Shown one piece after another: positions 3,728 to 61,871 of a DNA stretch of 64,000 nt (positions are counted from its first letter, which is position 1; each line of letters opens with the position of its first letter). The DNA comes from Planctomycetaceae bacterium (lineage in GTDB: Bacteria; Planctomycetota; Planctomycetia; Planctomycetales; Planctomycetaceae): assembly GCA_016795145.1 (NCBI GenBank), contig JAEUII010000159.1, positions 1 through 64,000 on the forward strand, read 5' to 3'. The notes beneath the pieces are model-generated. The model saw only the letters and a program-made list of their open reading frames with translations, searched no databases and had not been told where the DNA came from. The position numbers were made by a program, and so were the translations under genes.

Positions 3728-3729
3728 GT

Positions 3730-36506: not shown

Positions 36507-36582
36507 GATGAAGACTATACGGGGCAGGGATAATGCAAGCGGGAAGAGAATCTGCTGAAGCAACCGTCGCAGCGAACGTTGC

Positions 36583-37593: not shown

Positions 37594-37861
37594 TCCGCTT
37601 TTCCACTGGTCTGGTTTGCTGATGCTGCTACCAATTCCTGCATCGTGACGATTGCCAGATTGGTTCCGCGATCAAGCGACTTGTTGGTTCGAAACTGCCG
37701 TCGAAGTATCCACGGCAGGATATCGGGTGTCTAGCAACCCCAATTTCCTTTTGGTACTTTTGCCTTACACCCGCAGTGCGAGTCACCATAACAACGAGTG
37801 ACGATTTGGCAATGCCGCACTGAACAGCGTTGAATGCAATGCCTCGACCGGAGCAACTTCT
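37594..37861. promoter_or_regulatory. Divergent region between moxR and the giant TPR gene
   Basis: These 268 bases must hold promoters for the MoxR operon and the first giant gene. An inverted repeat, CTGCCGT (37695-37701) and ACGGCAG (37712-37718), has a 10-base spacer and may be an operator. GGAG at 37850-37853, 8 bases before ATG 37862, fixes the start of the giant gene. No convincing -10/-35 pair was identified. Confidence 0.5.
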
Positions 37862-40800
37862 ATGGTTCTGACGACGCGCAGCGAGCACGGATGCTATTCT
37901 CCGGCTCGCCTCTTCTCCCTGGCCGTCCTGCTCGCTTCTGTGGTTATGCTGGCAACCGCAAGTCGAATGACGAGCAAAGCCGCTGCGGATGAACCAGTGG
38001 ATGAAACAAGTGAACAAAGTGAAGCTGAGGCCGCGCAGGTGAAGGCGGCCGAACGGTTTCTCACCGTCCTTGAAAAAGCTCCTCGCCGCGGCACGGCGCT
38101 TGATCGGGTCTACGGTCATCATGTGGAATTCGGAACACTTGATCAGTTCATCGCGAAACTGAAGGAGAAAACGGAGAAGACTCCTGACGACGGCACGTCG
38201 TGGATGCTGCTGGGGCTTTTGGAGTCTCAGCGAGGTCAGGATGCGTCTGCCGCCGACGCATTCACCAAAGCCGAAACTCTCAGGCCGACAGATGCCCTGG
38301 CCTCGTATTATCTCGGTCAGTCACTGGTGCGTATCGGGCAGAATGCGGAGGCCGTTGCCGCCATGGAACGTGCCATTGATCGCAAGCCACAGCGAATGGA
38401 TGTGCTGGAGATCTTTCAGCAACTTGGACGGATGCACCAGCGTGCTCAACGGAATGAAGATGCTCTGAAGGTCTGGACCAGACTCGAAGAAATGTTCCCT
38501 GACGACCCACGCGTCCTCGAACAAATCGCGGTCACGCTCGCAGAAGAAGGTGCTCTGGAGCCGGCGTTGACTCGGTACGAGCGACTCGCAAAGATTGAAA
38601 CAGACGACTACCGCAAGACGATGAGCCTCGTGGCTGTGGCAGAGCTGAAAGTTCGCAGTGGCAAAAAGGAAGAAGGTCTGCGGGATCTTGAAGCGGTGCT
38701 GGCGGAGCTTGATCCGGAAGGCTGGCTGTATCGCGATGTGCGTCGCCGAGTTGACGACGTCTTCCTGAAAATCGGCGATCAGGATGGACTTGTTTCCTAT
38801 TACGAATCGTGGCTGGCAAGTCATCCCGAAGATGTGGAAGGCATGTCTCGGCTTGCAAAGTTCCTGGCTCAGGCGGCTCGAGTTCCCGAAGCGGCAAAGT
38901 GGATGGAGAAGGCTTTGAAGCTTGCCCCGTCTCGCGCGGACCTTCGCAAAGCGTTTATCGATCAGCTTGTGGATGATCAGAGAATTCCCGAAGCCCTGCA
39001 GCAGTATTCCCTGCTGGTTGAGGCAGCTCCGGCCAATACGGACTTTCTTCGCGACTGGGGCAAACTGGTTCTGAAGGACAAGAGCCAGGACCTTGAAGTG
39101 CGAAAGAAGGAAGCGACTCGCATTTGGAATCTGATGCTGGCTTCAAAGGGCGACGACCCGCTGATGGTTTCTCAGGTTGCGGATCTGTTTCGCCAGTCCG
39201 ACATGAAGGAGGAAGCACTGGCTCTGTACGAAAAGGCGGTCACTCTGGCACCGGCGGATCCTCAGTACAGGGAGTATCTCGGCGAGTTCTACCACATCCT
39301 GAAACGCAAAGACGACGCTCTGGCGACATGGGCTTCGATTGCAGAAGGCTCCAACAGAACGGTAGAGAATCTCGTTCGACTGGCGGAGGTCTATAACAGC
39401 TTTGGCTATCAGGACCAGGCTCTGGCAACCATCGCCGAGGCCTGTGTGCTTGAACCAAAGGAGTATGGTCTGCAGATGCGGTCTGCGGAGTACCATATGC
39501 GAGCGGCAAAGTACGACGACGCTCTGCGGTATGTGGATGCAGCTCAGCCGCTGGCAGAAACAGAGGAAGATCGTGACGAACTGATTCGTCAGCGAATTGA
39601 GATCCTTCAGAGCAGCGAGAAACTGGACGAAGAGATCGCAGCTATCGAAAAGCGTCTTGAAGCGTCGCCGGAGAAAACGGCTGGAGACTGGACATTGCTG
39701 GCTCGATACTACGAAGCCGGTCGTCGCTGGGTGCAGGCGCAGCAGTCCATCGATGCCGCACTTGCTGTTGATGCGAAGTCTGTTTCAGCGCTGACGGCTG
39801 CCGCACGGATCGGGGAATCATCCGGCGATTATGGTCGGGCGGCGGGCTACAGCCAGCAACTCGCGGAGATCGACCGTCGTTCGCGCGGGGACCACCTGAT
39901 GAACGTGGCTCGGCTGATGTCTCAGATGGGGAAGTCTGATGAAGCTCTGAAGGCGGCGAATGAGCTGATCATTTCCGCACCGGGGAATACTGATAACTAC
40001 GAGTTCTATGCGCAGCTTTGCTTCCGGCTTGGCAAATCCGATGAAGGACTGGAAGCACTTCGCAAGGCGGCTCGCATCAATCCGAATGAACCGCAGCTGA
40101 TGATGGCACTGGCATCGGCTCTTGCCACACAGATGCGAACGACGGAAGCGATCGAAGTGTATTGGCGAGCGTTCGAAAAGTCGGATGGGATTGAGGATCG
40201 AACAACGCTGACGGAGAAGCTGACTCCTTTGTATCTGCAGCTCAATCAGTTCGAACAGCTGATTGAGCGATTTGAACGAGATCGCCGTGAAGAGGACAAA
40301 CGTCGCGAAATGACCATTTGCCTCGCTCAGGCTCATCAGACCGCTGGCGATCTTACAACGGCCCGTCAGGAACTGGAACAGCTCCTCAGCGGAAATACTC
40401 GTGATACAAACCTGCTGCAGCAGTTATCAAAGTTGTGTGAAGCATCCGGTGATGTGGATGCTGCGATCAACTATCAGCGGCAGCTTGTCACCATCGCACC
40501 GGGACAGGAGAGTGAGTTTCCTCTGGTGAAGCTGCTTCAGGCTCGCGGCAGTTCGGATGAAGCCATGGAGATCCTTATCAGGCTGACGGCACGTGAAGAA
40601 GATCCCGCACGTCTGCTTCGCAATATCGATTCGCTGCTGAACCAGGGGGCCTTTGAAGCAGTCATTCGAATCACCGAACCACTTCTCTCCCAGCAGCGCG
40701 AAGACTGGGAGTTGCTGTATCGCGAAGGTTTGGCCTGGGCGAAGCTGAACAAGCCGGAGGAAGCAACGATTCGCTTCAACCGAATTCTGGATTTGTCGAT

Positions 40801-43800
40801 TCCATTCGACACGCTTGGCATCTACGCGGAAGATCGATTCAAGCGAGATCTTGCGAAGGCGAAGTCCGAGAACCTGAAAGGAAATCAGACTGCAGGACCG
40901 CAAAAGATAACTCCCATTCGGATGACGAGTTACAGCAGCCTGGTGATGCGAGCCACCGGGCTCCGCAACGAGGATTACTATTCCTCATCGTCGCAGGCCT
41001 TGCAGGTCTGGACGCCTGGCGAGTTTGGGACAGCACGTATGGCGTGCATCGGCTGGCTGATGAAGTTCGAATCGATGAGTCAGCAGGGCACTTCATCGGA
41101 AACGACGGCAGCAACATCGACAGCAACGAGCACGACCGAAAACCTGACAGAGTCAGCGGCGACAACAGCTGATGCCAAACCTAAGCAGGGAGTGCTGGAG
41201 CGATTTGCAGCGGCTGGCCAGGCACCAAATGCTTCCGATGATCGCGTCTTCGACTGGATCTTTGCCGCATCGCTCAAGCAGGACCTTCCATCGATCTTCC
41301 AGGCGACTCGACAACTGGCAAAGAAGGGAACTCGGGAGTATCAGCAGTACTTCCTTTCTTCGCTCTCGAACCGAAACCTGAGGACCGCGAATCGGCAGCG
41401 AAGCGGCGAGGATGGCAAATCGGAGGAGACTCCGCTCGATGAGGAAGATCTTGCTTTGATGATGCACTGCTACACAGAGCTGCTGAAGAGAGACAAGAAC
41501 GGCGAAATGGTTCCCGCTGGTGATATCGTCTATTCGAGCGATGGAACGGCCTATGTCAATATCGGGGGACGTTACGTTCTTCTTGACGGACCGGCTGGCG
41601 GCAGAGGATCCTTGATGAGCGTCGTTAAGGAATTGCGTTTGGCGGGAAAAACCGAGGAAGCCGATCGCCTGTTCGCTGAGTTCGTTGCTGCCATCAAGAC
41701 ACCGTCAGAACAGTCATTTCTTATTGCGCAAAGGCTTCAGGAAGACAAACTCGAAGAGCTTCCGGTGATGTTTGACAAACTGTGCACCATGATTTCGGCT
41801 GATCTTGATGTGCCAGGAAATCCTAAGAATGGAGCGATCTCAGTTTCCCGCGGTGCCACATCGGTGCTCATCGGCGTTGGCATGCAGTGGATTGGGCGGT
41901 TGGGCGAGGCGGAAGAAAATGCAAGAATTGTTGAGTTTGTTGACCGATCCCTCGATTTGCTGTCCCGTGACTGTAAGCGTCAACTGGATCTGCTGAACAA
42001 AGCATCCCAGCAGCAGCGCCAGCAGGCACAACAGAACTATGGACAGATCGGATTGTCATGGTACTACGGAAAGCAGTCACAGTACGTGGAGATTGAATTT
42101 CCAGTGCCCGGTCGCTGGATGAGCTATGCCTCACTGCAACTGCTCAGACAGACGTACGAAGTGTTTCAACGTAACGAAGTGGTTCCGGATCTTGTCGCAC
42201 TGTTGCGAAAGCGTGTCGAGAAAGCACCGCCGGAACATCTTCCATTCGAGCAGATGCACCTTGCTTCCGTGCTGTGGTGGTCGGGTGAGCAGGACGATGC
42301 CGTGGAACTTATCGCTGCAGTGCTGAGCCAGGACAAAGCCGAACTGTCGTCACAGTTTGAGCTTGTTGCATTGCGGCAGCAGCAGGGGGATTTTGACGAA
42401 GCCCTGACCTTGCTGGATTCCATCGCAGCCCGTGACCAGAAGACACTCGTCAACCGTGAACTCCAGGCGTTGAATCTTGCAGAACGTGTCGCTGATTATG
42501 ACCGTGCCAGGACCGCGGCGGAACGACTTTTCGGACTTCGCCTGGACGCGCAGACTCAGACGGGGCTCTCAGTTTCTCTGCGACGTCTTGGCATGAACGA
42601 TCTGGCCGATGCCGTGCTGCGTCGATCTGAACGGCAGGCAGGCAACCAGCCCGCATCGCTGGCTTCGTTGATGTTGCTGTATCAGGGACAGGGGCAAACC
42701 GAGAAAGCTTCGCAGCTGGCCCGAATGCTGCTCCAACGCACGAAATCACCGATTTCACTGAACGCGCCGATCGTTTCACGCGGTCAGATGCGAGCCTCAG
42801 GCGACTCGAACCGTACACAGGCCATTCTGCTTCTGCGGCAGACTGGGGAGTTGAAGTCGCTCATCGAGAAGCTGGAAGCACAGCGGGAACGAAATCCGGA
42901 CAACAGTCGCATCGTCGAACAGCTGATTGAGTTCTACAGCAACAGTGCTCAGAAGGACAAAGTGATTCCCCTTCTGGAAGCCGCCATTCGCCAGCATCCG
43001 GATTCTGCGAGCCTGCATCTTCAGCTGGCGAAGGAGTATCAGCAGTCCAACAAGGCGAAGGAAGCGTGCGATCAATATTTGGTGGTGATGGAACGTTCGC
43101 CGAATGTGATCTTCAGCGACTTTTATGAGATCCGCAATCTGTTTCGAACGGCCAACAGGAACGAAGACATTCTGAAGGTGCTGAAGAAAGTCGATTTGAA
43201 GAGTATTTCTCAGCCGTACTATGTGGTGGATCTCGTCGGTGACATGCTGAATGAAACGAATGCCGGCGACATCACCTTTGAACTTGCAGAGAAGATCTTT
43301 GAACAGCTGCCGCACTATCGCTCGAACATGCTGTCATCGATCAATTCGGCAGAGATCTGGAAGTCAGATCGGTTCTTCCGGCTTGGACTTCAGATGCTGA
43401 TTCCAACTGACGCGGAACTCAAATCGCAGCCCTGGTCCGGGTTTGAAGTGTATTCCTATAGCCAGGGCGGACGAGTCAATTCCCGAATCGAAGGACTGCT
43501 TTCAAGCCTGCGAGAATCTCCTCGCTACGGTGAGGTTCGCAAAGCGATTGAAGATCGTGTGCAGAAGGCTCCGGAATGGTTTGGAGGTCGAGCGATCCTG
43601 GCATCTCTGGATTTTCATAGTGGCAAGCGTGAAGAAGGACTCAAGCAGTTTCTGGCTCTCGCCAACGATCCGATGGTTAGAAAATCGATGACGTCCGATG
43701 CGGAGCGCATGGTGGGACAGGAACTTCTTGCCGCAGCCTCCGGGAATGAGTCTGCCGGGATCGCTGGCAATAATGATCCAAAGACGCTGGAAACGGCGCT

Positions 43801-46800
43801 GGAACTGCTTGTCCGGTCATACCAATCCACACAATCGAACGAGGAGTTTGAGTACACTCCCGGCTTCCTGCTGATCGAAGCCTACATCAAACTTGGTCGA
43901 AAAGACGACGCTCGCAAACTTCTGCAGACTGCATTGTCCCAACGAAGCTCGGGAAGTCAGGCCGATTACGATGCATATAAGAAAGTGAACAATGCTGTCC
44001 AGGTCGCGCAACAATTGACTCGGCTGCAGCTTCATGTTGATGCACTGAAGGTCTATTCGGGACTGATGAGCGATGAGGCGACTCTGCGACTTGCGGATTC
44101 GTGGAACGGCCGTACCGACTATTATCTAAACATCGCTCAGAACGGCTTGACTGAGAGCCTGAAGCAGCTGCAGGGAGCGGAAGCAAAGGACGCCATCGGC
44201 ACATTGCTCACTGACCGAAAAGCTGTCAGCAATGCAGATCAAAAGTCCAATGGCATCGACACCGTGCTGGACGTGATGCCATTCATCCCTTCAACAGTGA
44301 TGGCGTCCATCAGCAGTTCCCCTCAGGACTCAGACTCCGACTCCGAGGATGCGGTAAAGCGATCAGGCATTCATTGCGGCCTGGTCTCGCTGCTCACAAA
44401 ACTCTCGGAAGACCCGCAGATTCAGTCAGCGATTCACTCGCGTCTGCAGGAACTGGCGGACAAATACCCCGCCGATACTTCTGTCGCCCTCGTTCGAGCT
44501 GGCATGTTGGTTCATTCCAAAGATCCGGGAGCAAACTCCGCGGTTGATACTCTCTTGAAACTGCTGGAGGCTCACCCTCTGGAAGAAGTGGCCCCAGGCC
44601 GTCGTCCCAATTCGCGACAGAGGAAGGAAGCCGCGCCGGACATTTTGCTATGGATCATTGCCAAACCTGTCCTGGCATCGGACCCTGCCTCTGCTTCCGG
44701 AACCGCCCTGGCGACGCGTGCTTTGCAGGCGGCCGAGAGGCAGGATTCGCTGGCACCGGCGTCTCAGATTCTGATGGGATGGTCACAGATTCTGCTGGAA
44801 GCGGGGAATCGCCCGGAAGCGGAATCTCAGCTTCGTCGGCTTCTGGAAATCTCAACGGTCCGTCCAAAACGGAAAGCCGCAGCGCAGCCTCCAGGCGGAC
44901 CTCGTCCGGTCCCGGGAAGGCCAGTTCCGCAGGCGGTCCCTGTCCGCGATGGCAGCGCGGGGGGCGAGCCGCCGGCGGAGCTTCGAAATGACGCTCTTCC
45001 GCTGAGACTCAAGTCAATGATTGCAATGGTCAGTCTTGCAAGTGTGATGTGCGCTGACCCGGCATCTGCTGCCTGCGCCGCTTTGCCTGTGTCGGTCCTG
45101 AGTTTTCAGGAAGGGGCCGTGGTACCTCAGCGTGCTGCGTCCGAGAACGTGGGTGATACGGAGAAGAAGGCAGAGATCATTCCCCCGCTCACGATCTCCC
45201 AGTTTCGACTTGCGATGCGGGTGGCTCTGGTCGCCGCAGAAAACGACATGGTGGACTTGTCGATTGCAGCGATTCGCGAGGCTCTGGCTGGAGGCAGTCC
45301 ACTGCCTGATCCCGTGGTTAACAGAGCAAACGGGATGGCCGGAAGGATGAGCTCCAGTCCTTCAGGCGAGGACCAGTCGCAGTTTGATGAACAGGTTGCT
45401 TCGTCACTCAAGATGGTCATCGCGAAATGGGATGGTGATCAGTATCCAGCCTCCGAGGTTTACGATCTCCTGACGCGGCTGGTGTTTCCGGCGTCGCGAC
45501 CAGCAGACATCCTTCTGTTTCCTGATTACTCCGGATTGCGCGATGCATCCCCGGAGAGTATTGCGTCAACGCTTGTGACGTGGACGATTCGTGCAGGCCG
45601 ACAGGATGAACTTCGCAAGCTGTTGAATGATCGCAGTCAGTCTGGCTCAGTGATCAAATCATCGGTCGTCCATGTGCTGCTCGACCTTGAGCTGAAGCAG
45701 ACGAGTGGAACGGCGGATCGATTGAAATCCATCAAGGATCTTCTGAGCCAATCGCCGGATCCCGAGTCGATCCGGCTGGCGTGTCTTGCGGCGATTCCGT
45801 CAGCGTCGGACCCTCAGTTAAAGCCAGAGGCAATGCCGATCCTGAAGCTGGCGATGATGACACCGGGTGCTAATGGTCAGAGTGAAAACCTTGGCCTGGG
45901 AGAACTGGATCGGCTTGTGACCGAATGGCTTGCGGAAGCCAATGATCTGGCGGCCCTCCAGCAGCACTTCGACGCCGTCCTTGCGGCAAATCAGGCCAAC
46001 TATGCACGATACAGCGGTGACTATGGAAGTTACATGCAATGGAACGCCCTTGCGAATGTTGCCTCACAGGCCTCTCGCGTGAAGGCGATTGATATTGCAC
46101 TCGACTATATGGGACGTACAGTTGACCTGCGTGTGGACGACTACCAACTCCCGCGTCTCGAGACGCCACTGGCAATTGTCGTTCGCCATTTCAGAGCGAT
46201 GGATTCGCAGAAGCGTTATGAAGCATGGCGTGACTGGACTATGCCAAAGGAAGGCCGTCAGACGGTTCGGTTGGTCTGCCACTCGATTCCAGCCGTGCCT
46301 CAAGTGCCAGGTCTCGACAAGACTAAGGTCGTCCAGGCGCTGGATGGCTCAGCAATTCTCTGCAACCTGACAGAACTGGTGCAAAGCGCGAAGGAAGCAA
46401 ACTGCCTCTCAGATCTCGAAGGACTCGCGAAGAAGGCCTACGATGAAAAGCTCCCGAACGCAGACTATCTCTGGATGATCCTGCAGCTTGAGAAGGAGAA
46501 CAGGGAGTTTCTGACGACGGCCTATCCCAACTTTCTGAAGTCACTGTCTGAACGAAGGAAGGGCATCAACGACGAGGGACCGTTTTGTGACTTTCTTATC
46601 GTGTACAAGTGCCTCCAGTCGAACGCATTGAATGAGATAGCGCTGAACTTTGGGTTTCATGAAACTCGAAAGCTGTTTCAGGATAACGGCGGCTCCTCAA
46701 TGCTGTCGCACCTTCATCGGGAGTTTGGTGCGAGATTCGCCAGCAGGACAGGCAGCACACTCTTTAGTGCTCCGCCGTCATTCGTCCAGGCAACTCCGCA

Positions 46801-49768: not shown

Positions 49769-49859
49769 TTGACGTTACTCAGATGCGGGTGAATTCGAGG
49801 ACTGCAGCCCTCGAACACGTGGCCTCGATTGAGCGGGTGCGATTGAAGGAAGTGTGTGA

Positions 49860-52800
49860 ATGGACAAGTTTCGCCTGCGATCAATCTGTGCTCTTAGCGG
49901 GTTGATTGGGTCACTGATTGCTGCTGAGAATGTCGGCCTGACGTCAAGCGTGGCTGAGTGTCATGCGGCGATGCCTGATGAGGCAGATGAAACGGCAGTC
50001 GAACAGGCAAAAGTCCTTTCTCGCTTCATGTCTGTTCTCGAAAAGACGCCGCGACGTGGTACCGCTCTCGATCGTGTTTATGGCCACCATGTTGAAAATG
50101 GAACGCTGAAGTCCTTCCTCGCAGAACTCCGGGCGAAACTGGAGAAGACTCCGCAGGACGCGGCATCGTGGATGTTGCTTGGCCTGCTGGAATCTCAGCG
50201 AGGTCAGGACGCGGCTGCGGCCGAGGCGTTCGCGAAAGCGGAACCACTTCGTCCTGCAGACCCGCTGGTGTCGTTCTATCTTGCTCAGTCACAGATTCGA
50301 ATCGGCTTGAATCAGGAAGCCATCGCCGCGCTCGAACGCGCGATCGAACGTAAGCCACAACGGTCCGATGCGGTTGAGATCTTCCAGCAGCTTGGCCGAC
50401 TCTATCAGCGTTCTCAGAAGCTGGCAGAGGCCACCCGTGTCTGGCAGCGACTGGAAGAAATCTATCCGGATGATGTTCGTGTGCTGGAACAGATCGCCAC
50501 ATCTTTGCAGGAAGAAGGCGATCTCTCCGAGGCGATCACGCGATTTCAGAGAGTCGCTGAGCTGACGAGCGATGACTATCAGAAGACCAACAGCCTGATT
50601 CAGGTCGCTGCCTTGCAGATTCAAAGCGGGCAAAAGGAACAGGGGCTGGCCGGCTTTGAGCAGCTTCTTTCAACGCTCGACCCGGACAGCTGGCTTGCAG
50701 CCCAGGTTCGCGAACGGATCGAGAATGTCTACCTGGATAATGGCGATCAGGATGGCCTGGTGAAGTACTATGAAGACTGGATTCAACAGCATCCAGAAGA
50801 TCTCCTGGCTATGTCTCGTCTGGCACAGTTTCTGAACTCGTGCGCACGCACGGCTGAAGCGATTGTGTGGCAGGAAAAGATCATTCAGCGAGCACCCTCG
50901 AGAGTAGATTTTCGCCAGCAGCTGATCGATCTCTACCTGACTCAGGGGCAAGCCGCTTTGGCATTGAAGCAGTACGAGTTACTCCATGAGCAGGCTCCAC
51001 AGGACGCCGAGATACTTCGCAGCTGGGGACAAGTCGCGCTGAAAGATCCATCGAAGTCCGCGGAAGAACGACAAAAGGAAGCGGCCAGGATCTGGAATCT
51101 CATCGTCGCTGCAAAAGCAACTGATCCGCTGACAGCCGCTCAGACGGCAGAGCTCTTTCAGCAGGCGCAGATGTTTTCGCAGGCTCGAGCACTGTACGAA
51201 AAGGCTGTCAGCCTGGCTCCGGATGATCCGCAGTATCGGGAGTACCTTGGCGAATTCCTGCACCTTCAGAAACAGCCTGCGGAAGCCCTCCGAGTCTGGC
51301 GTGAAATTGCGGCTGGTCCCCGTCGAACAGCGGAGAGTCTCGCCAGCGTTGCGAGGCTCTGCAGCAAGTTTGGCTACCGTGCTGAAGCGGCAGATTTGAT
51401 CAGCGAGGCATGCGAATTATCCACCGATGATTTTGCGCTGAGGCTCACTGCGGCGGAGTATCTTTCTGCAGTGCAGAACTTTGATAAGTCTCTTGCGTTG
51501 CTGATAGATGCGGGACGTCTGGCTGAGACGGAAGAAGAGCGGGATGTTGTCATTCGTAACCGTCTTGATGTGCTCGGGGAATCGGGGAAACTTCAGGCGG
51601 AAACGGCAGCGTTGGCTGCTCGCATTGCTGCTCTTGCCGAGGCGACAGAGCAGGACTGGATCTTGCTTGCACGATACTATGAGGCGACAGAGGCGATCGA
51701 TGAGGCGACGGCAGCGGCTGATCGAGCCTTGCGGATCAACGAGCGATCCGTTCCCGCACTGACTCTTGCCGCGCGGCTGAGAGAAGCCGCAGGGGATTAT
51801 GCGAAGTCGGCAGAGTATTCACGGCAGCTGGCCATCACAGATCGGCGTTCTGCCACAACGCACCTGAAGAATGTTGCGACACTTGAGGCTGCTCTCGGAA
51901 ACGTGCAGCAGGCCATCCTCGCCGCGGAAGCTATGGTGGAATCGGCACCGGGAAGCACTTCATCATACGACTTTCTGGCCGACATCTGCTTTCGCTTTGG
52001 TCAGAACGATCGGGGAATGAAGGCATTGCGCGAAGCCGTCAGGATCAGTGGTGACGATCCGGAGATGACGATCAAACTTGCAACCGTCCTGTCGCAGCAA
52101 CTGCAGACGGAAGAGGCTGTCGAGGTGTATTGGCGAGCCTTCGAGAAGTTCGAATCGATCGATGACCGAACCTCGCTGATTGACAAACTGGTTCCACTGT
52201 ATCAGGAACTCAACCAGGTCGACTCGCTGCTTGGCCGACTCGAACGCGCTCGAAGTGACGAACGGCAGCGTCGATCGATGACCATCTGTCTTGCTCAGGC
52301 CTGGCAGTCGCTTGGAGACTTGGGGCTTGCGAGAACAGAACTGGAGAAGCTCCTCGTTCAGGAATCTCGCGACACTCGTCTACTCAAGCAGCTGGCGACG
52401 GTTTGCAGAGACATGGAAGATCTCGGGGCCGCGATACGTTACCAGCAACAGCTTGTGGCGATTGCTGATGGCGAAGAAACAGAAATTCCGCTGGCCCTTA
52501 TGCTCAGGGACCAGGGAAACTCTGAGCAGGCGAACGAGATCCTGCAACGGCTCGCGCTGCGGCAGGCAGATCCGGTCGAGCGACTCAGAGCAGTCGATCA
52601 TCTCCTGAAGGCTGGCGCATTTGAAAACGCTCTTCGGATTCTTGAACCGTGGCTGAGCAGAGAGCCAGAGAACTGGGAACTCATCTTCCGCGACGGGTTA
52701 GCACGTTCCGGACTTGGACAGGATGAGACAGCTCAGGCCCGATTTCAGAGTCTCCTTGCGATCGATCTGCCGCTGACGACACGTGGAGCCATTTTCGAAA

Positions 52801-55800
52801 AGGAGATGAAGGGAAGAGTGTCCGGAGCGGGCCAGGGGTCGGAGACAACGATGCCGAACATAGCGTCCGGTATCTCGGCCATCGACGCCTATCAGATGAC
52901 CACGCGACTTCAGGATCTGACTGGGATCGACGATGACTACGTGTCGTGGCCTGACGCAGTCCTCTCTCCTCGCACCTTTGCCGAAGCGCGAATTCTCAGT
53001 TTCATTTTCAACAGACAACGCGAAGTCACGCCCCCGAATCCTGCTGCGGGAACCTTCCCTCAAACCGGGGCATACGGAGACAGCACGCAATCAACGACGG
53101 GCTTGTCGACAGAGCAGTTTGACAAGTTCTGCGTTCAGCTCATCGAGCCCGAAACGGATTCTGTTTCCCGCATGATCCGACTTGCCCGGCAGAATGATCC
53201 TTCGGCAGGTTTGCTGGCATTGCTCTCGCTGATTCCCCGAAACGGTTCCACAATTTGGGACGTTGAACTGGCCTCTCCGGACCGAAAACTCAGCGAGGAC
53301 GAACTCACGATCATTGTGGAAGCCCACAACAGGTTCCTTCGAAGCGGTGAGGACATCGTGTATACGCGTTTGGCTCCGTTTCTTTCCCACCGCCCAAACG
53401 GCGACTTTTTGGCGATCGAAGGATTCCGGGGCGTGGTCTTTAGTCCTGGTGTCCGCGTCTTCACAGGCTTTGTGATTTCGGAACTTCGGTTGGCTGGTCA
53501 GATCGGCGAAAGCGAGAAGCTGCTGAATGAAGTGCTTGCTGCTTCCAGAACAGCAGACGACTTCGCCGGCAATATGTATTTGCTCGTCGAGTTGAAGAAG
53601 TTCGACCGCGTGCCTGCGGAATACAGTCGGTGGCTTGAAGCAGCACGAAAGGAATTCGCTCAGACCATTCCCATCGGAAACAGCCCAGTCAAAGCCACGT
53701 CCGATCAAAGGTTCCGCGCGACGATTGCTTTGAATCGGTGGATCGCTTCCCTCGCGCAGCAGAACCAGAATGATCAGATTCTGAGCGTTCTGAGTGATTA
53801 CCTGAATCTTGTGCAGTCACCTGGATTCAAAGCGGATGGGTTCGACCGCCGTTTGCAACGGATTCTGCCGCAGATCTTCGTCGGCCAAAAACAGTTTAGT
53901 GTTCAACTTGATAATTTCCCGGGCAGCACCGATGTTCCTGCGGCCTCCAACCTCGTCCTTGCTCAGGCTTACAGGTCATTGCTGCTGAATGATGCAGAAG
54001 ATCTGTTGGTGCGAGCATTGTCAGATCGCATCCGAAATGCCAATGGCGATGCAAAGTTCGCTGAACAGCTATGTCTGGCACAGGTCTTCAACTGGATGGG
54101 CGATACGGAGTCGATGTTTGAACTGCTGACTGCGGCAGCAACGTCAAGGAGTTCCGGAGCCGAGGCGGCATTTCAACTTGCTGAGCTCCATCTGCTGCAG
54201 GGCAATTTTGATGAGGCACTGACCTGGCTGGATCGGGTTTCACCAGCAAACCAGCAGGCACTCCTAAGGCGAGAATGTGCGGTACTGGTCCTGGCGAAGA
54301 GGCTTGGCGACTATCGAAGGGCGTCGACGGCCGTTGAGAAACTACTCGGGCTTCGACTGGACCCGGAAAGAGAACAGTATCTGATCGAAGCGGCTCGATC
54401 GCTGGGCATGAAAGAGGCCGTTTCAGCCCTGATGCGACGGCGAGAACGAGCGACAGGAAATCAACCTGATGCCCTCGAGGAGCGAATGACGCTCGATGTT
54501 CAACATGGGGATCATGAAAACGCCGAGAGACTTGCACGCAGAATTCTGCAACTGACTCAGAGTCGGCGTATGACTGGTACGTTGTTTCGCCAAAATCGCA
54601 ACCACCGGGGAAGTCCTAGCAGGCAGGCTGCTCTGCTAGTCCTGAAAGAAGGCGGTGACCTCGAGGAAATGGTTGCAAGTCTGGTCAAGCGTCTCGAGCA
54701 ATCGCCGGATTCCGTGCAATTGTGGGATCAACTCATTGAGATGGCGACGTTCAGTGGAACGCCGGAGCCTGTGCTGAAGTTCCTTGAAGCAGCCACGAAA
54801 CAACGTCCCGAGAACGTGAATCTGCGACTGGCTTACATAAGGCTACTGGAAAACTCTGAGCGGGGCGACGAAGCATTTCAGCACTACGAGTATCTGCTAA
54901 AGCAATCGATCAACGCGCTGAGTTTCTTTGACTTGGATCATGTTTACAATCGCTTTCGTGGAGCTGGGAAGCTGGACATGCTCGTGGACTCTGTGCTGGC
55001 AGCCGAGAGTGGTGATTTCGCTGACCCCGCGATTCAGTATGAGATCGCTCGCAGAATTTTCGCCTGGGATTCTGATCAATCGCTCGGAAAGAAACTTCTC
55101 GACAACATCGTTCAGAGAAACTCAACGTTTGTACGTCGATGGAAGATGGGGAACGACATATTCTGGAAGAGTGACCTCTATTTTTCGAAGTCACTTCTCC
55201 GACTGATGCCGAACCAGCAGCGGATTCTCGAAGATCCCTGGTGCGGGTTGAATCTTGCCGAGAAAGAGTGGAACTTGTCTCACGCGCTCTATTTTGCAAC
55301 GACGACGGAAAGAGCCAATGAATTCCGAACACTCCTCGAGCGGCAGTTGAGCGAGACCCCCGAATGGAACGGTGGAGTCGCAATTCTGGCATTGCTGAAT
55401 CTGTCGACGGACCAGCGACCTTCCGCCATTGAGACGCTTCGTGAGTATGCAGCGGACGCAGATCGCCTTCAGGATATGCCGGCAGACGTTTGCTGGAGAC
55501 TGGGCACGGCGCTGGATGCGACAAGGGAATCCCAGGCTCTGGCTACCAGGTTCGTGGAGAGTGCGATTCGAAAGGAATGGCTTCTGGATGGGCGAATCTC
55601 GCAGTCTGCCGAACAGCATTTCAGGACGCTGGCGGAAAGTGGTCGCACAGAAGAGGCGAAATCCCTGGTTTTGCCCATACTCGATACGCACCGTTCGGAT
55701 GCCGAGTCGCCGGAATGGGTTCGTGTTAACAACGTGCTGACGGCGGCAGAGCTTTTTGGAGCAAGCGGCTTGCGTTCTGACACAATCCGATTGCTGACCA

Positions 55801-58800
55801 GAATTTTGAAAGATCCGAAAGCCGCCTCCATCGCCTCTCAGTACAAGCCAGATGAAGCAGACTGGAACCGTACCACCATTGGAGATTATGTGGACATCCG
55901 AGAGGGCGTGCGTGACGACATCGCCGCACACCTTGAGGAGCTCAAAGGGGACGAGCTGACTCAGGCGATCGCTGAAGTGCTGAGTCTCGCGCCCTCGCTG
56001 GACGATGGTGGCCGTGTTGACCTTCTGCTGAGCCTGTCGTATTCAGACGAGCTATTGCTGTCGGATCGAATCTTGATTCTGAACAGCTACCTTCTGGACA
56101 CGCTGGCCAAAAAGTGCGATTCGGATGATCTGCGTCAGAAGTTGATTCCGCAGATTGATTCACTCTGCCAGGAATACCCGGATGATGTTTCCGTCGGCGT
56201 TCTTCGAACGGCGTTGTTGCTGAGGATTGAAGACCCCCGAGGAATCGACTGTGTCAGCGATCTCGTGCGACGCGTCACACAGTCGCCCCTCCCCAAACCT
56301 GCAGCCACGCAGGTTCCTTCCCGACGTCTCCTGCAACAATCGACTTCTTATCGAGCACTCTGGCTGGTCGCACGAGTCCTGATCGAACGGGATCTCCGTC
56401 CTTCGGATTCGGAGTTTCTTGCTCGCACTGCTGTTGATGCTGCATTACTCGACACCAAATCATCCGATGCGGAAGCGATCCTGCTGGACCAGTCCAGGCT
56501 GCTGATGAAAAAGAAGCAGTTTCAAGCGGCCGAAAAGGCGCTTCTGCAGTACCTCGCAATTTATACCCCCAGACGCCGCTTTCTGGATGCCGATCTGATC
56601 GCCAATGTCGCACCACCCGAAGTTAGTGTTCCAGGTGGGGTGACGGGGGAGTTCGGGGAAGCTTCTGCGATGTCCACCGCGAATCATCCGATGCGCCTTC
56701 CACAGTTCGAGGAGGTCATGCGTATCGCGAAGATGGCGGCTGTGAATGGGATGCCCACCTTGTCTCAACGCGCGGTGCGAAGGGCGTTTGCCGCAGGCTT
56801 TCCTGTGCCGGAACAATCCAGCCAGATGAACGCCAGTCCGTGGGATGACATGGAAGTCCTCCGGCATCTTGTGGGAGCGGACAGTGAGTTCCGGGAACGA
56901 CAAAGTGCTGTTTCGAGCCTGAATGGTGTAATCGCCCATTGGCATGGCCCTTCATACGAGCCTTCGGAAGTCTCAAAGATCCTGGAATCTCTGGTGTTTC
57001 CGGCGAGTCATCCCCGTGATATTGAACTCTTCACGCAGGATGATCAATTGAAGTATGCGATTGTGGATAACCTTGGTGTTCCGCTGATTTCGTGGGCACT
57101 ACTCGCAGGGAGGGAGAATCAGCTGCGTTCTCAGATCGAAGCGCGCAAGGCCACGGACCCGGTCGCGGCGTTCGTTCTTTCTGGGCTTCTTAACCTGGCC
57201 GTGGAAAATACACCCGGGGCTCAGTCTGATCTGCTGGCGCTGAGAACAATGGTGCTCGAAGAAAAATCAACGACCGTGGTCCAGCTGGCCTGCCACGCAG
57301 CCATTCCGTCGGCAAAGCACAAAGCACTGGTGCAAACGGCCGGTGACATTCTTGAGGTGGCAGTTCAGCAATCGTGGGCCGAGCCTGACAGCAACGATGA
57401 TGAGACAGTCTTCAGTGCCTTGGGACAGCTGTACCATCGAACGAGGGCACAAACTGGCAACCTGGCTGTACTTGAGAAGCAGGTCGAAGAGCGACTGCAG
57501 CGGGACTATGACAGCGTTCAATTCTCGCTCAGACTTCACGAACGAGTGGCCAAATTCGAGCAAGCGGCGAACGAAGCAGCCCGGGTTCAAGCGCCCTCAA
57601 CAGCGATGAAGTTCCTCGGCGTAGCCTGCGATCAGTCGATGGATGCGGAGCCCCCAAAAACACAACCTGCGGTTGCGTTCGTGACGAACTATCTTCGTTC
57701 ACTCGAACCTCGGGAGCGTTACGAAAGATGGCGTGACTGGACCTTGCAAATAGACCAGCGGAAGTCGATTCGAGTCGCAGCGGAGGTTGTCCCTCGGATT
57801 CACATTCCGGATGCTCTTCTCGATTCGTACAGACAGAAGAATCGCCTGCCCGACCGTCTCCTGTTATGTAACCTGACTGAACTCGTCGACGCGGCCGCAG
57901 CCTGCGCGGCACTTGATGAATTGCAAACCGCCGTACTGAAGGCAGACCAGGAGAACGTGCAGTTCGCAAAGCACCTGCTTCTGCTAATTGAGCTGCGAAA
58001 GGGCGAATCAGGCGAAGTTAGCAGGCAAGGCGAGATTCGTAAGCAATTTGATGAGATGCTCAGACGGAATCAAAGAACAACGAAGGATGTTCAGGCGATC
58101 GCTGTGCTCGCACTCGAGTTAGTGCACGACCGTCGATTTGTCGCAGACTTGACTCAGAGAGCGGCAGCGATTGAGAACTCTGTTGCGGACATTGAAGCAC
58201 TTCAGGAACTGATCAGTCATGAATTCTCCCACGCCAATTGTCTGGCATTGGATCCGAAACGGTCCACCGTCACTTCTGTCGACTCACTGTGGAGCCCGGT
58301 CCTGTCTGAGGTCACCGTTCCCAACAGGACTCACTGGCGTCGAGCGGCCAATGTGCTTGTTGGCTTGAGTGGAAGTGAGATGGATGGACTGCTGCTTAAT
58401 CTTCCTCTTCACGGCGATTTCGAGTTTTCAATGGAAGTGCTGAACACGCACAGGAGAGCATTCGCCGGGTTTGGAGGTGTGCTGGCGAGCATCAATGAAA
58501 AGCAATTTCGTGTCCAGGATTTCTTTGGAAAAGACGCTGTGGCCGTGCCGGGAGACGTTTCCAAAAACACAGGCGTCTGGGACCGAACGTCGCTTCAGAT
58601 TAAGGACGGCATGATTCGCTATTTCCTCAACGGAGAACTGCGTTTTGAAGAGCCTGCTGTGTCCGCTGTCCCATGGCTGGTGCTTTCCAATGGCGGCACC
58701 GGTACGACGGTCGTCAGAAACCTGGAAGTCCAGGGGACGCCGCAGGTTCTTCCGGAAGTCAACCTGATCGATCAGGATCGACTTGATGGATGGAGTTGTT

Positions 58801-61800
58801 CTGTCTTCGGAGAAGCTCGACCAACACCCAGACTGGCTTCTGCTTTGGATTCTACGAACGGACGGCAGATTGTCCCGGAGCCTTTTGGCTGGCCCGTCTG
58901 GCACATCGATCAAGGTATCCTGATCGGAGATGCTCGGCCGCATGTTCCACCTGGTGAACAAAGCTGGCTCTCCCATTGCCGAGCTCTGCGGACAGGCGAT
59001 CGACTTTCATACGAGTTCTTCTACCAGCCAGGTGGAATGGTGGCTCATCCTTCGATCGGGCAAAGGGCTGTTCTTCTGTCCCCGGAGGGCGTGAAGTCAC
59101 ACTGGATTCTCCCACCAGGCTTTGAACAGGAACTAATGGCACTTCCGTCAGACAATCAGTTCGAAGAACCAGAGTTCGTTGTGGCTCAGGGACCTCTGGC
59201 CCTCAAACCCGACGACTGGAATCAGGTCGAACTGCATTACGATGTGAATCTGATTCACGTCTGGCTGAATGGTGAAGTCGTGTTCCGTCTGCCAGTAACG
59301 GAACAAACGGATCTTCGGCCGGGCATCTTCCGTTACAAACGGCAGGGGACTCGCGTTCGAAATCTTGTGCTGAAAGGTGATTGGCCGAAGACGTGGGACA
59401 ATTCGTTTGTCACGAACCTCACTGCTGGTCTGCCTGCCTCCTCTGCAGACGATTCCAAAGCGATCGCTGCATTGCTCCCTCGGACCTTTCTTGCGGATTC
59501 CGTTTCTGAAGTGCTCTCGCAAGGTGCCACTCCGGAATCTCCGCAACAGTCCTTTGAACGACTGAGAGCCTGGGTACTGCCGAATGAACAGCATGAGGAC
59601 TTCCGACTGCTCTATCAGAATCAGGGGCCATCCAAAATCCTGTCGCCCGCGATGGAACTTGTGGCCCTTGCGTCCAAAACGGACGGACTGAATGCCCTTG
59701 AGCAGGACGTGCGAAAGATCGAGTGCAAAACCGGGGTTAGTCGCCGGTCAAAGACAAGCCTTCTGGCCTTGATCGCGATCGCCAGGCAAGACTGGCCCGG
59801 CGCGAAGCAGTTGTGTGCGGAACTGTCGGCAGACCTCAATCACAACATCCCGGAACTCGTGCTTCTGGACACGGAAGCTCCCGAGTATCTCGTTGCATGG
59901 GAGGCCTCTTCTCATGCAGAGTTACGGATGGAAGCCAGGGAACTGTGGTATTGGTTGCAGAAATTGGATGACGAGAGCATTGCCAGCCCGCTGTATTCCA
60001 TTCGGGACTTGCAAGCGCGTCAGGAAAGACTTTTTCGCCACCATGTCGGTACCTCACCGCCAGAGCACTTGACCCAGTGGCAAGCAGCAGCCTGGCCCCT
60101 GGCGAGTTCCTGGGAGTTCAGCTCCACGACGGAGGACTGGGATTTTGTGAAGGGAGAAGCGAGATTTCAGAATGCCAGGAGACACAGTTTCCTGTTCTTC
60201 CAGTCCCCGCTTGAAGGTCAGTTTGAGGTTCATTTCCGTCAGCGAATACGAAGTGAATTGGCACTTGTCTGGGGTGACACGTCAACGCTTCCCCGGCGTG
60301 AACTCATCGAGCATCTGGCAAATGAGACAGCACAGAATTCGGCTTCGGAAGATGAAGTACCGATCGGTGCCGCAGCAGCCGCCAGGGCCGCGGATCGATT
60401 GGCGGATGTCCGCCTCATCGTCAACGAAAAACAGATATCGATCTTCGTCGACGGAAAGAAAATCCATTCCGATGAATCTCGTCGCCCCTGCGATCCCTGG
60501 CTGATCCTTCACGGGAAAAACAAGGCGATCATCGAGGACGTTAGGATCATTGGCACACCTCGAATTCCGGTAGAACTCGATTTGCTTGCGTCTGCTCACC
60601 TTAATTGCTGGCAAACGAGATCACACAATGTAGACCGAGGCGATGACAACAAAGGGAGAACAAGCGACTGGCGCAGATCCGGAGACGAACTTGTCGTCGC
60701 CCGCTCGGAACCGGACGAAGCGGCCGTCGATCCTTTGATGTACATTCGTCCGATGCTGGAAGATGGTGAGCTCGAGTATGAAGTGTTCTGGGAACCGGGC
60801 CGACTGGAGTGTTCGCCGGCGATCGGAAAGACAGCCATTCTTCTCACGGCAAACGGACCAAAACTGCAGAAAATTCTGGATCAGAGCGATAGTGCTCATC
60901 TGGTGGCCATCGACAATCCTGATCAGATCCTCTCCGCCGTCAGTTCCATCTCTTTCAGGAATGATGACTGGAACAAAGTGCGCCTGACTCTTCAGAAAGA
61001 TGTCGCGACGGTCTTTGTAAATGACGTCCAGGTTGTGTCGCTGAAAGTACCCGAATCCCCGTCGGAGCGTCACTTTCGATTTGTTCGGCTAGCCACAGAG
61101 ACCGGCAGTCGACTCCGACAGATCATATACCGAGGGCAATGGCCAACAGAGCTGCCTCCGGTCAAGGACCAGCAATTGAGTCTTCCGCCAGACTCGCTCT
61201 CCGCTCCGCAGGAGAGTCAGGACTGGACCATGGAAGAACTGGATCTTCGGTTACCGCAGGATTCGGTAAAGCCATCGAGCATTCAGCTTCAAATTCTGCC
61301 TGAAGCCGTTGTCCCTTCAGAGACCGGTCTTGTCGTCAACACCATCAACACGGTTGGACAACCGACAGCACCGATTCGAATTCTGTTTCCGCCGAAGGAC
61401 AACTTCATAGCGACGGTCGGCTTCCAGGATTTAGAGGCGACGGCAAGCGACGCAGCTGCTTCAGCGGGCTTTGAATTCAGCCTCACGTCGGCCAGTCTGC
61501 CAGGAGAATCCATCGTGCTGGCTCTGGAACGACAATCCGACGGGCCCCGTTTTGTTTCATCGTGGCCGCGCTGGAACCGTCCGTCCGACAACGGGTCTGT
61601 CAGCGAGGAACGATTCAGTCTTCCCGCGAGTTCGAACGCAGGACGCCTGCGTTTCATTCGACGGGGAACTCAACTTTTCGTCATGTACTCCGAGGCCGGA
61701 AGTGAGAGCTTCCGTCTGATGAACTCGTACTTTGTCGGTGACAGACCATTCGAGACGCTGGAAGTCACTGGACACGCAGCAGCATCAGCACCAGCATCAG

Positions 61801-61871
61801 CACCTGAGGCCGCAAAGAACAAATGCTCAATTATGCTCAACCGATTTGAACTCCAGGCTCCGAAACGCTGA
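49860..61871 (+). CDS. Giant exported TPR / jelly-roll protein B (4003 aa)
   Basis: This is a tandem paralogue of protein A, starting 91 bases after it, with AAGGAAG about 8 bases before ATG 49860. The N-terminus has a signal-like hydrophobic stretch (about 8-21), then the same GTALDRVYGHHVE motif and a collinear TPR region; by eye the first 300 residues are about half identical to A. The beta-sandwich pairs lie at about 2810-2990 with 3010-3180, and 3417-3580 with 3580-3767. The shared helical block contains AWVLPNEQHEDFRL (HGWVLPNEEHDDYRL in A). B has an extra C-terminal domain of about 220 residues (3780-4003) that looks like a fifth jelly roll, plus a low-complexity AASAPASAPEAA patch. 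Its function is unknown; the duplication argues for distinct but related clients or binding targets. Confidence 0.85.
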   Translation: MDKFRLRSICALSGLIGSLIAAENVGLTSSVAECHAAMPDEADETAVEQAKVLSRFMSVLEKTPRRGTALDRVYGHHVENGTLKSFLAELRAKLEKTPQDAASWMLLGLLESQRGQDAAAAEAFAKAEPLRPADPLVSFYLAQSQIRIGLNQEAIAALERAIERKPQRSDAVEIFQQLGRLYQRSQKLAEATRVWQRLEEIYPDDVRVLEQIATSLQEEGDLSEAITRFQRVAELTSDDYQKTNSLIQVAALQIQSGQKEQGLAGFEQLLSTLDPDSWLAAQVRERIENVYLDNGDQDGLVKYYEDWIQQHPEDLLAMSRLAQFLNSCARTAEAIVWQEKIIQRAPSRVDFRQQLIDLYLTQGQAALALKQYELLHEQAPQDAEILRSWGQVALKDPSKSAEERQKEAARIWNLIVAAKATDPLTAAQTAELFQQAQMFSQARALYEKAVSLAPDDPQYREYLGEFLHLQKQPAEALRVWREIAAGPRRTAESLASVARLCSKFGYRAEAADLISEACELSTDDFALRLTAAEYLSAVQNFDKSLALLIDAGRLAETEEERDVVIRNRLDVLGESGKLQAETAALAARIAALAEATEQDWILLARYYEATEAIDEATAAADRALRINERSVPALTLAARLREAAGDYAKSAEYSRQLAITDRRSATTHLKNVATLEAALGNVQQAILAAEAMVESAPGSTSSYDFLADICFRFGQNDRGMKALREAVRISGDDPEMTIKLATVLSQQLQTEEAVEVYWRAFEKFESIDDRTSLIDKLVPLYQELNQVDSLLGRLERARSDERQRRSMTICLAQAWQSLGDLGLARTELEKLLVQESRDTRLLKQLATVCRDMEDLGAAIRYQQQLVAIADGEETEIPLALMLRDQGNSEQANEILQRLALRQADPVERLRAVDHLLKAGAFENALRILEPWLSREPENWELIFRDGLARSGLGQDETAQARFQSLLAIDLPLTTRGAIFEKEMKGRVSGAGQGSETTMPNIASGISAIDAYQMTTRLQDLTGIDDDYVSWPDAVLSPRTFAEARILSFIFNRQREVTPPNPAAGTFPQTGAYGDSTQSTTGLSTEQFDKFCVQLIEPETDSVSRMIRLARQNDPSAGLLALLSLIPRNGSTIWDVELASPDRKLSEDELTIIVEAHNRFLRSGEDIVYTRLAPFLSHRPNGDFLAIEGFRGVVFSPGVRVFTGFVISELRLAGQIGESEKLLNEVLAASRTADDFAGNMYLLVELKKFDRVPAEYSRWLEAARKEFAQTIPIGNSPVKATSDQRFRATIALNRWIASLAQQNQNDQILSVLSDYLNLVQSPGFKADGFDRRLQRILPQIFVGQKQFSVQLDNFPGSTDVPAASNLVLAQAYRSLLLNDAEDLLVRALSDRIRNANGDAKFAEQLCLAQVFNWMGDTESMFELLTAAATSRSSGAEAAFQLAELHLLQGNFDEALTWLDRVSPANQQALLRRECAVLVLAKRLGDYRRASTAVEKLLGLRLDPEREQYLIEAARSLGMKEAVSALMRRRERATGNQPDALEERMTLDVQHGDHENAERLARRILQLTQSRRMTGTLFRQNRNHRGSPSRQAALLVLKEGGDLEEMVASLVKRLEQSPDSVQLWDQLIEMATFSGTPEPVLKFLEAATKQRPENVNLRLAYIRLLENSERGDEAFQHYEYLLKQSINALSFFDLDHVYNRFRGAGKLDMLVDSVLAAESGDFADPAIQYEIARRIFAWDSDQSLGKKLLDNIVQRNSTFVRRWKMGNDIFWKSDLYFSKSLLRLMPNQQRILEDPWCGLNLAEKEWNLSHALYFATTTERANEFRTLLERQLSETPEWNGGVAILALLNLSTDQRPSAIETLREYAADADRLQDMPADVCWRLGTALDATRESQALATRFVESAIRKEWLLDGRISQSAEQHFRTLAESGRTEEAKSLVLPILDTHRSDAESPEWVRVNNVLTAAELFGASGLRSDTIRLLTRILKDPKAASIASQYKPDEADWNRTTIGDYVDIREGVRDDIAAHLEELKGDELTQAIAEVLSLAPSLDDGGRVDLLLSLSYSDELLLSDRILILNSYLLDTLAKKCDSDDLRQKLIPQIDSLCQEYPDDVSVGVLRTALLLRIEDPRGIDCVSDLVRRVTQSPLPKPAATQVPSRRLLQQSTSYRALWLVARVLIERDLRPSDSEFLARTAVDAALLDTKSSDAEAILLDQSRLLMKKKQFQAAEKALLQYLAIYTPRRRFLDADLIANVAPPEVSVPGGVTGEFGEASAMSTANHPMRLPQFEEVMRIAKMAAVNGMPTLSQRAVRRAFAAGFPVPEQSSQMNASPWDDMEVLRHLVGADSEFRERQSAVSSLNGVIAHWHGPSYEPSEVSKILESLVFPASHPRDIELFTQDDQLKYAIVDNLGVPLISWALLAGRENQLRSQIEARKATDPVAAFVLSGLLNLAVENTPGAQSDLLALRTMVLEEKSTTVVQLACHAAIPSAKHKALVQTAGDILEVAVQQSWAEPDSNDDETVFSALGQLYHRTRAQTGNLAVLEKQVEERLQRDYDSVQFSLRLHERVAKFEQAANEAARVQAPSTAMKFLGVACDQSMDAEPPKTQPAVAFVTNYLRSLEPRERYERWRDWTLQIDQRKSIRVAAEVVPRIHIPDALLDSYRQKNRLPDRLLLCNLTELVDAAAACAALDELQTAVLKADQENVQFAKHLLLLIELRKGESGEVSRQGEIRKQFDEMLRRNQRTTKDVQAIAVLALELVHDRRFVADLTQRAAAIENSVADIEALQELISHEFSHANCLALDPKRSTVTSVDSLWSPVLSEVTVPNRTHWRRAANVLVGLSGSEMDGLLLNLPLHGDFEFSMEVLNTHRRAFAGFGGVLASINEKQFRVQDFFGKDAVAVPGDVSKNTGVWDRTSLQIKDGMIRYFLNGELRFEEPAVSAVPWLVLSNGGTGTTVVRNLEVQGTPQVLPEVNLIDQDRLDGWSCSVFGEARPTPRLASALDSTNGRQIVPEPFGWPVWHIDQGILIGDARPHVPPGEQSWLSHCRALRTGDRLSYEFFYQPGGMVAHPSIGQRAVLLSPEGVKSHWILPPGFEQELMALPSDNQFEEPEFVVAQGPLALKPDDWNQVELHYDVNLIHVWLNGEVVFRLPVTEQTDLRPGIFRYKRQGTRVRNLVLKGDWPKTWDNSFVTNLTAGLPASSADDSKAIAALLPRTFLADSVSEVLSQGATPESPQQSFERLRAWVLPNEQHEDFRLLYQNQGPSKILSPAMELVALASKTDGLNALEQDVRKIECKTGVSRRSKTSLLALIAIARQDWPGAKQLCAELSADLNHNIPELVLLDTEAPEYLVAWEASSHAELRMEARELWYWLQKLDDESIASPLYSIRDLQARQERLFRHHVGTSPPEHLTQWQAAAWPLASSWEFSSTTEDWDFVKGEARFQNARRHSFLFFQSPLEGQFEVHFRQRIRSELALVWGDTSTLPRRELIEHLANETAQNSASEDEVPIGAAAAARAADRLADVRLIVNEKQISIFVDGKKIHSDESRRPCDPWLILHGKNKAIIEDVRIIGTPRIPVELDLLASAHLNCWQTRSHNVDRGDDNKGRTSDWRRSGDELVVARSEPDEAAVDPLMYIRPMLEDGELEYEVFWEPGRLECSPAIGKTAILLTANGPKLQKILDQSDSAHLVAIDNPDQILSAVSSISFRNDDWNKVRLTLQKDVATVFVNDVQVVSLKVPESPSERHFRFVRLATETGSRLRQIIYRGQWPTELPPVKDQQLSLPPDSLSAPQESQDWTMEELDLRLPQDSVKPSSIQLQILPEAVVPSETGLVVNTINTVGQPTAPIRILFPPKDNFIATVGFQDLEATASDAAASAGFEFSLTSASLPGESIVLALERQSDGPRFVSSWPRWNRPSDNGSVSEERFSLPASSNAGRLRFIRRGTQLFVMYSEAGSESFRLMNSYFVGDRPFETLEVTGHAAASAPASAPEAAKNKCSIMLNRFELQAPKR

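Follow-up and report, generated by a model that had tools for sequence, protein, structure and literature searches.

Two adjacent giant genes beside a MoxR-VWA gene cluster

The window, the whole stretch of 64,000 nucleotides of planctomycete DNA that we analyzed, contains two uninterrupted reading frames of about 12 kb, giant A and giant B, which lie on the same strand with a gap of 91 bp between them (Table 1). A sequence-only reading of this DNA had described the two as adjacent paralogous genes, and ORF translation found both frames open at exactly the positions it gave. BLAST and a global alignment showed A and B to be collinear from the N-terminus to the end of A, with 34.7% identity over 3700 aligned positions; identity was 48-57% in the first ~1000 residues and, save for one 44% block, mostly 20-37% beyond. 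The segments that had been listed as shared, including WVLPNE, were present in the translations of both genes.

Divergence by codon position followed the order third > first > second when A was compared with B and when either was compared with the giant of genome G294. Between A and B the third position had diverged by 0.68 and the second by 0.44, and between A and G294 the corresponding values were 0.62 and 0.29. This order indicates purifying selection on both frames and bears out the earlier supposition of strong selection. Many other genomes carry orthologues that are open over 3600-4500 aa, which excludes a sequencing or assembly artefact for the giant family, including the frame-splitting error against which the sequence-only reading had cautioned. 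It is hardly conceivable that A and B are just long ORFs of an ordinary kind without a special function: planctomycetes are rich in TPR proteins, but this explanation is refuted by the codon-position pattern and, as described below, by conservation across families and the class, linkage and co-occurrence.

With a hydrophobic N-terminal segment on each (hydropathy), the giants look like exported proteins, as had been proposed. A promoter and terminator scan of positions 37500-50000 returned sites no more frequently than in shuffled sequence.

The genes for a MoxR-type ATPase, a DUF58 protein, a BatA-type VWA protein and a VWA/GATase protein run divergently from A, and the MIDAS motif DxSxS is intact in every VWA-type protein of this module. 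By analogy with Borrelia BB0173, the VWA domain of which was shown to be periplasmic (PMC5700661), we infer that the two large VWA proteins (BatA-type and VWA/GATase) would be inner-membrane proteins with their VWA domains in the periplasm. A sixth component, a coiled-coil membrane protein of ~500 aa, is found beside the module in relatives. Pfam gave no significant match for it, and in the window's own genome its gene sits on a different contig (C253).

Table 1. Features of the giant genes and their neighbors (window coordinates; residue numbers refer to the encoded protein)
Feature	Coordinates	Strand	Description	Basis
VWA/GATase1-like membrane protein	30707..33349	-	two MIDAS motifs, three predicted membrane segments	Pfam, hydropathy
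BatA-type VWA protein	33416..35572	-	BatA N-terminal domain, MIDAS (DNSAS), three predicted membrane segments	PF07584 35.5 bits (cut-off 25.9), VWA_2, hydropathy
DUF58 protein	35631..36563	-	VWA fold, MIDAS motif; beside moxR	PF01882 140.9 bits, motif
MoxR-type AAA+ ATPase	36583..37593	-	336 aa; Walker A GVPGLGKT and Walker B (VLLADEI) intact	Pfam AAA_3 212 bits, motifs
Divergent intergenic region moxR-A	37594..37861	.	268 bp; close divergent moxR-giant pairing kept in many genomes	sequence
Giant A	37862..49768	+	3968 aa; N-terminal hydrophobic segment, TPR/helical-repeat solenoid, two ConA-type jelly-roll pairs	ORF, Pfam, AlphaFold2 models
Putative Sec signal peptide of A	37862..37990	+	hydrophobic residues 15-33, AAADE-like end	hydropathy window
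Best-conserved part of A, residues 60-1000	38039..40861	+	TPR core common to long (3200-4500 aa) and short (about 1850-2800 aa) members	conservation, Pfam TPR, alignments
Helical repeats of A, residues 1780-2890	43199..46531	+	without Pfam family; modelled helical solenoid	AlphaFold2
Pro-rich linker of A, residues 2340-2436	44879..45169	+	probably disordered, ~100 residues	pLDDT <50, sequence
Jelly-roll 1 of A, residues 2977-3151	46790..47314	+	includes DUF1581	model, Pfam
Jelly-roll 2 of A, residues 3186-3351	47417..47914	+	DUF1583_N	model, family match
Helical spacer of A, residues 3360-3585	47939..48616	+	between jelly-roll pairs; bears WVLPNE motif	model, alignment
Jelly-roll 3 of A, residues 3597-3758	48650..49135	+		model
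Jelly-roll 4 of A, residues 3793-3948	49238..49705	+	DUF1583_N, top match to Pfam family (Pfam residues 3813-3952)	model, Pfam, fold matches
Giant B	49860..61871	+	4003 aa; tandem paralogue of A, long branch	ORF, collinear alignment, tree
Jelly-roll pairs of B, residues 2820-3776	58317..61187	+		alignment with A 2990-3965
Fifth C-terminal domain of B, residues ~3830-4003	61347..61868	+	DUF1583, PF07622, E 4.6e-5, barely above cut-off	Pfam

Domain architecture of the giants

Pfam reported TPRs, two DUF1581 and two DUF1583_N domains in both giants and an additional DUF1583 that closes B. The TPRs lie in the N-terminal part and again near residues 1400-1750, while DUF1581 and DUF1583_N occupy the C-terminal quarter, with scores above the curated cut-offs (209 bits for DUF1583_N and 93 bits for DUF1581 in A; 163.7 and 81 bits in B). 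Among 27 long members, identity per 100 residues was 38-58% in residues 100-1000 and 13-49% elsewhere, the block at 1501-1600 being the one exception to the low conservation outside the N-terminal part.

AlphaFold2 modelled residues 1780-2890 of A (23 sequences) as helical repeats throughout (pLDDT 77), and the closest solved folds are TPR and HEAT solenoids. The model of residues 2880-3968 (24 sequences; pLDDT 80, pTM 0.76) contains four jelly-rolls, arranged as two pairs that flank a helical spacer. Both models support the architecture first proposed from the letters, in which a helical-repeat stretch of about 2800 residues leads into paired sandwiches at the end. Several other family members run ~220 residues or more past jelly-roll 4, like B, which suggests that the fifth domain was probably lost in A and G294.

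The last jelly-roll pair of A matched the folds of DUF1080/3-keto-glycoside enzymes and CBM66 (Z 13-14; 9fbe, 3hbk, 4azz), and the two-domain BT3469 (4jqt) came first in both fold-match lists for the A jelly-rolls. The DUF1080/3-keto-glycoside hydratase-eliminases and CBM66 share the ConA-type jelly-roll with the giants, but at 10-16% identity. PF06439 (3-keto-disaccharide hydrolase, DUF1080) scored 45.4 and 42.4 bits against a cut-off of 26.8, covering positions 103-185 (A) and 116-159 (B) of a profile of 187. When a profile of the C-terminal alignment was run against PDB sequences, the matches were weak at most (best RBL4, E 0.003; next putative glycosyl hydrolases). Glycan binding by the jelly-rolls is a putative function suggested by this resemblance alone, and a shared fold shows no function.

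The jelly-roll domains belong to catalogued Pfam families without described function, DUF1581 (PF07619), DUF1583_N (PF20407) and DUF1583 (PF07622), the entries of which cover the C-terminal quarter of the giants only. A literature search on DUF1581/1582/1583 found no functional paper. The initial impression that such proteins have no known role was thus half right: no biochemical role is assigned to them, but their C-terminal domains are catalogued and the family is widespread in Planctomycetia, cultured strains included.

Co-inheritance of the giant and the MoxR-VWA module

We scored the giant in 198 genomes of the class by a match to a profile of its N-terminal region, which was present in 46. 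Orthologues of the VWA/GATase protein were told from ~30%-identical paralogues by a cut-off that was set afterwards in the gap between E 1.1e-122 and 9e-116; the divergent proteins of G430 and G472 (36-40% identity) were counted as orthologues, with the same gene set and an adjacent giant in both genomes. Giant and VWA/GATase occurred together in 44 genomes, the giant only in two, VWA/GATase only in none, and neither in 152 (Fisher p about 4e-42, kinship ignored). The two giant-only genomes are G450 (81% complete) and G461 (9% contaminated). Because kinship affects this count, we also cite the six genera that hold both states (g7, g13, g223, g236, g266, and g277), in none of which giant and VWA/GATase were discordant. 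A search for co-occurrence with moxR, DUF58 and VWA genes had been suggested by the sequence-only reading; the link is real, and far stronger than that reading could foresee.

In a panel of 80 genomes, the coiled-coil protein matched all 42 giant-bearing genomes and none of the 38 others. MoxR in general is ubiquitous, with about 12 paralogues per genome. An orthologue of the module's own MoxR (62-100% identity, E 1.1e-137 or better) was found in 41 of the 42 giant-bearing genomes, the exception being G360, and the controls of the panel had MoxR paralogues only.

These data show that the six genes, encoding the giant, MoxR, DUF58, the BatA-type VWA protein, VWA/GATase and the coiled-coil protein, are inherited as a unit and are mostly encoded together. 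Co-functioning of the giant and the MoxR-VWA module is well supported. Since the family is almost always inherited along with the five genes of a membrane chaperone set, the giants seem to supply the extracytoplasmic component that was missing from an envelope machine of a known kind. It is this genomic context, the co-inheritance of giants with a MoxR-VWA module, that is new here. The claim of an undescribed system holds in part: the giants belong to a real module, but the pair alone is no system, one giant is usual, and planctomycetes are already known for giant genes (PMC5177795).

The same counts bear on the proposal that the giants capture substrates, as lectins or adhesins on the surface or as carbohydrate enzymes, with the MoxR-VWA cluster merely a frequent neighbor. 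The ConA/DUF1080/CBM66 fold is consistent with such a role, surface proteins or PKS/NRPS are said to be the products of most bacterial giant genes (PMC5177795), and short DUF1583 proteins exist without the module (the G291 tandem array, below). However, the split of 44 versus 0 versus 2 genomes, with no discordance in any of the six mixed genera, is not a matter of chance neighborhood, and the Pfam 3-keto-disaccharide hydrolase match spans part of its profile only. We regard this explanation as quite improbable.

Gene order in relatives

In 29 of the 44 genomes, no more than 13.5 kb separates the giant from MoxR or VWA/GATase; it is typically divergent from MoxR, and in 19 genomes the distance from the MoxR match to the giant N-terminal match is 357-592 bp. 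In the other 15 genomes the genes are mostly on separate contigs of draft assemblies; in G453 the giant is unlinked, about 220 kb from the module. Among named genomes, searched with a narrow giant alignment, MoxR, DUF58 or VWA was within 10 kb at 47 of 80 loci. The order MoxR-DUF58-BatA-VWA/GATase is retained next to the giant in Kolteria novifilia Pan216 (CP036279), Limnoglobus roseus PX52, Laterigemmans baculatus JC640 and many MAGs, and sequence relatives include MAGs labelled Planctomycetaceae and Fuerstiella. A collinear, one-strand order giant-MoxR-DUF58-BatA-VWA is found in G428, G430, G472, and G011, which are deep branches (G011 is outside the class). In G158, another genome from outside the class, the same genes are arranged divergently and the giant has 2370 aa.

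A type II secretion-like set (GspK-like protein, pseudopilins, GspF, GspE, and secretin) occupies positions 15047-25979 of the window, about 12 kb from the giants. We dropped these genes, at 15-26 kb, from the module because the conserved neighbors in the relatives' loci that we read are the MoxR-VWA genes instead. Positions 14297-14947 encode a 216-aa protein with a 45%-identical homologue directly downstream of a TPR-type giant in G297, and positions 26411-27610 encode a secreted-looking protein with Gly/Arg-rich tracts and EF-hands.

Variation in the family and the second copy

Members of about 1850-2300 aa adjoin MoxR too (G313, G446, and G466), and BLAST found no match between these short members and the jelly-roll region of A. 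This suggests that the TPR part is the core of the family and that the lectin part looks optional.

The module usually has one giant, and among the neighborhoods that we read, a tandem second copy occurs in this window only. The tree joins B to A, G294, and G368 at a fork that has support 92 and is shown as unresolved, and the branch of B is about fourfold longer than that of A (1.16 versus 0.28). From these lengths, B would be a fast-diverging second copy. Two long giants are kept apart in G412, G444, and G465. In G315 a second giant next to the VWA/GATase gene (G315:C1:2901380-2903575) is broken by an in-frame stop, and an intact copy of 4262 aa lies elsewhere in the genome. Three genomes of one genus (G297, G304, and G307) have a VWA/GATase orthologue at 70-76% identity and shorter TPR-type giants only, at other loci (G297:C27, C68, and C101); the long giant has apparently been lost or replaced there. 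A further giant, 73% identical to A and accompanied by the full module, is on CAMAVB010000001.1, a MAG titled Candidatus Kuenenia stuttgartiensis. This label is probably wrong, as the contig is apparently the same as that of G294, which shares the window's genus.

Comparison with known systems

Bat clusters unite MoxR, DUF58, VWA and TPR proteins, for which a large complex has been proposed (PMC3557215, PMC5700661). With the Bat clusters of Bacteroides and spirochaetes the module shares the combination of MoxR, DUF58, a BatA-domain VWA membrane protein, a second VWA protein and a TPR component; its MoxR has the Walker motifs, its DUF58 gene is adjacent, and its BatA/VWA proteins are membrane-anchored and carry MIDAS. 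Unlike Bat, the TPR component is an exported-looking protein of 1850-4500 aa with optional ConA domains, there are extra GATase-like and coiled-coil components, and the genes are mostly divergent rather than in a single operon. BatD (PF13584) had no match in the window's genome, G368, G152, G428, or G430, and in G318, G477, and G335 it is located far from the module. Because the search of this genome yielded no BatD, we call the module Bat-like and not a Bat operon. As to BatC/BatE orthology, the NCBIfam BatC match of B was far under its cut-off. Every giant score was likewise under the cut-off for the TPR equivalogs PrsT, MamA, LapB, PilW, and BcsC; rejected on these grounds were the XrtA/PEP-CTERM PrsT TPR protein (TIGR02917; 183 and 171 bits against 312) and the magnetosome protein MamA (NF040959; 137 and 129 bits against 200).

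The vWA-MoxR ternary conflict systems (PMC7159879) also combine MoxR, VWA and a third protein, and an immunity role for the module could be argued from its TPR-bearing third protein and from a bpMoxR Pfam match above cut-off, though AAA_3 scores four times higher. Unlike those systems, the module has membrane-anchored VWA proteins without recognised effector domains, an exported-looking third component and a composition that is stable across deep divergence, and a PADLOC defence search gave weak and partial matches only. We consider an immunity function very improbable. Pfam searches of the neighbors, PADLOC and a comparison of the architecture with PMC7159879 revealed neither the required effector domain nor a VMAP, iSTAND, FtsH or beta-propeller third component, and assignment to these systems was rejected.

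Giant genes (>5 kb) are a typical planctomycete trait (PMC5177795, PMC12288469). The main text of these two papers does not mention TPR, MoxR or DUF15xx; the genome of Kolteria novifilia Pan216 contains the module.

A possible role as an envelope scaffold

With middling confidence, we favor a reading in which a Bat-like MoxR-VWA module serves as an envelope chaperone and has the giants as its exported partner. Its TPR partner would have turned into a giant solenoid with a putative glycan-binding end that acts as a scaffold and tethers the machine. MoxR would form a cytosolic AAA+ ring that acts with the VWA/MIDAS proteins. Two of these, BatA-type and VWA/GATase, would be held in the inner membrane with their VWA domains toward the periplasm. 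The giant would be exported through Sec, and its N-terminal TPR superhelix (residues ~60-1000) may dock on the VWA domains or on their clients. The variable C-terminal jelly-roll pairs would reach outward and probably bind envelope glycans or glycoproteins. As a long scaffold, the giant could thereby keep the chaperone machine attached to whichever surface or envelope layer it assembles or repairs. The co-inheritance, the linkage, the intact ATPase and metal-binding motifs and the architecture of solenoid and jelly-rolls are the observations behind this proposal, whereas export, docking and glycan binding are inferred. Weighing against a scaffold are the unlinked copies (G453, and other contigs in several genomes) and the lack of a counterpart of B beside A elsewhere.

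The chief rival is that the giants are a dedicated client, which the MoxR-VWA machine folds, metal-loads or assembles and which then acts on its own as an envelope or surface protein. Co-inheritance alone fits either reading. MoxR-VWA pairs have been described as chaperone and co-chaperone acting on substrates (PMC7159879), a solenoid of 4000 residues would require folding help, and the giant precedes MoxR collinearly in four genomes. On the other hand, conservation is highest in the TPR core, which is shared with shorter members and resembles a protein-binding platform rather than the active part of a client, and second giants lie away from the module in several genomes. We consider a client role possible but rather unlikely.

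A bolder form of the scaffold proposal is a planctomycete-specific envelope machine, in which an exported TPR superhelix of ~4000 residues would bridge an unusually wide periplasm and couple the inner-membrane MoxR-VWA ATPase system to outer layers that bear glycans; the TPR core would dock, and exchangeable lectin pairs would serve as a reading head. This version is speculative and, in our estimate, unlikely.

MoxR-VWA (Bat-type) clusters are widespread, but few of their clients and extracytoplasmic partners are known; the giant family is a concrete candidate partner. Planctomycete giant genes and the function-less DUF1581/DUF1583 domains in turn gain a context from the module. We nominate the cultured carriers Kolteria novifilia Pan216, Limnoglobus roseus PX52 and Laterigemmans baculatus for testing.

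DUF1583-type proteins at other loci

Five tandem short DUF1583-type genes (909-1944 aa) are present at G291:C1:3169999-3189068, apparently adjoining a sigma-factor-like gene, in a genome that has neither a giant nor the MoxR and VWA orthologues. This array is a separate use of the giants' C-terminal domains. In the window's own genome, a DUF1583_N protein of 1643 aa (G000:C448:12207-17138) adjoins genes for a putative NiFe hydrogenase large subunit and a maturation protease.
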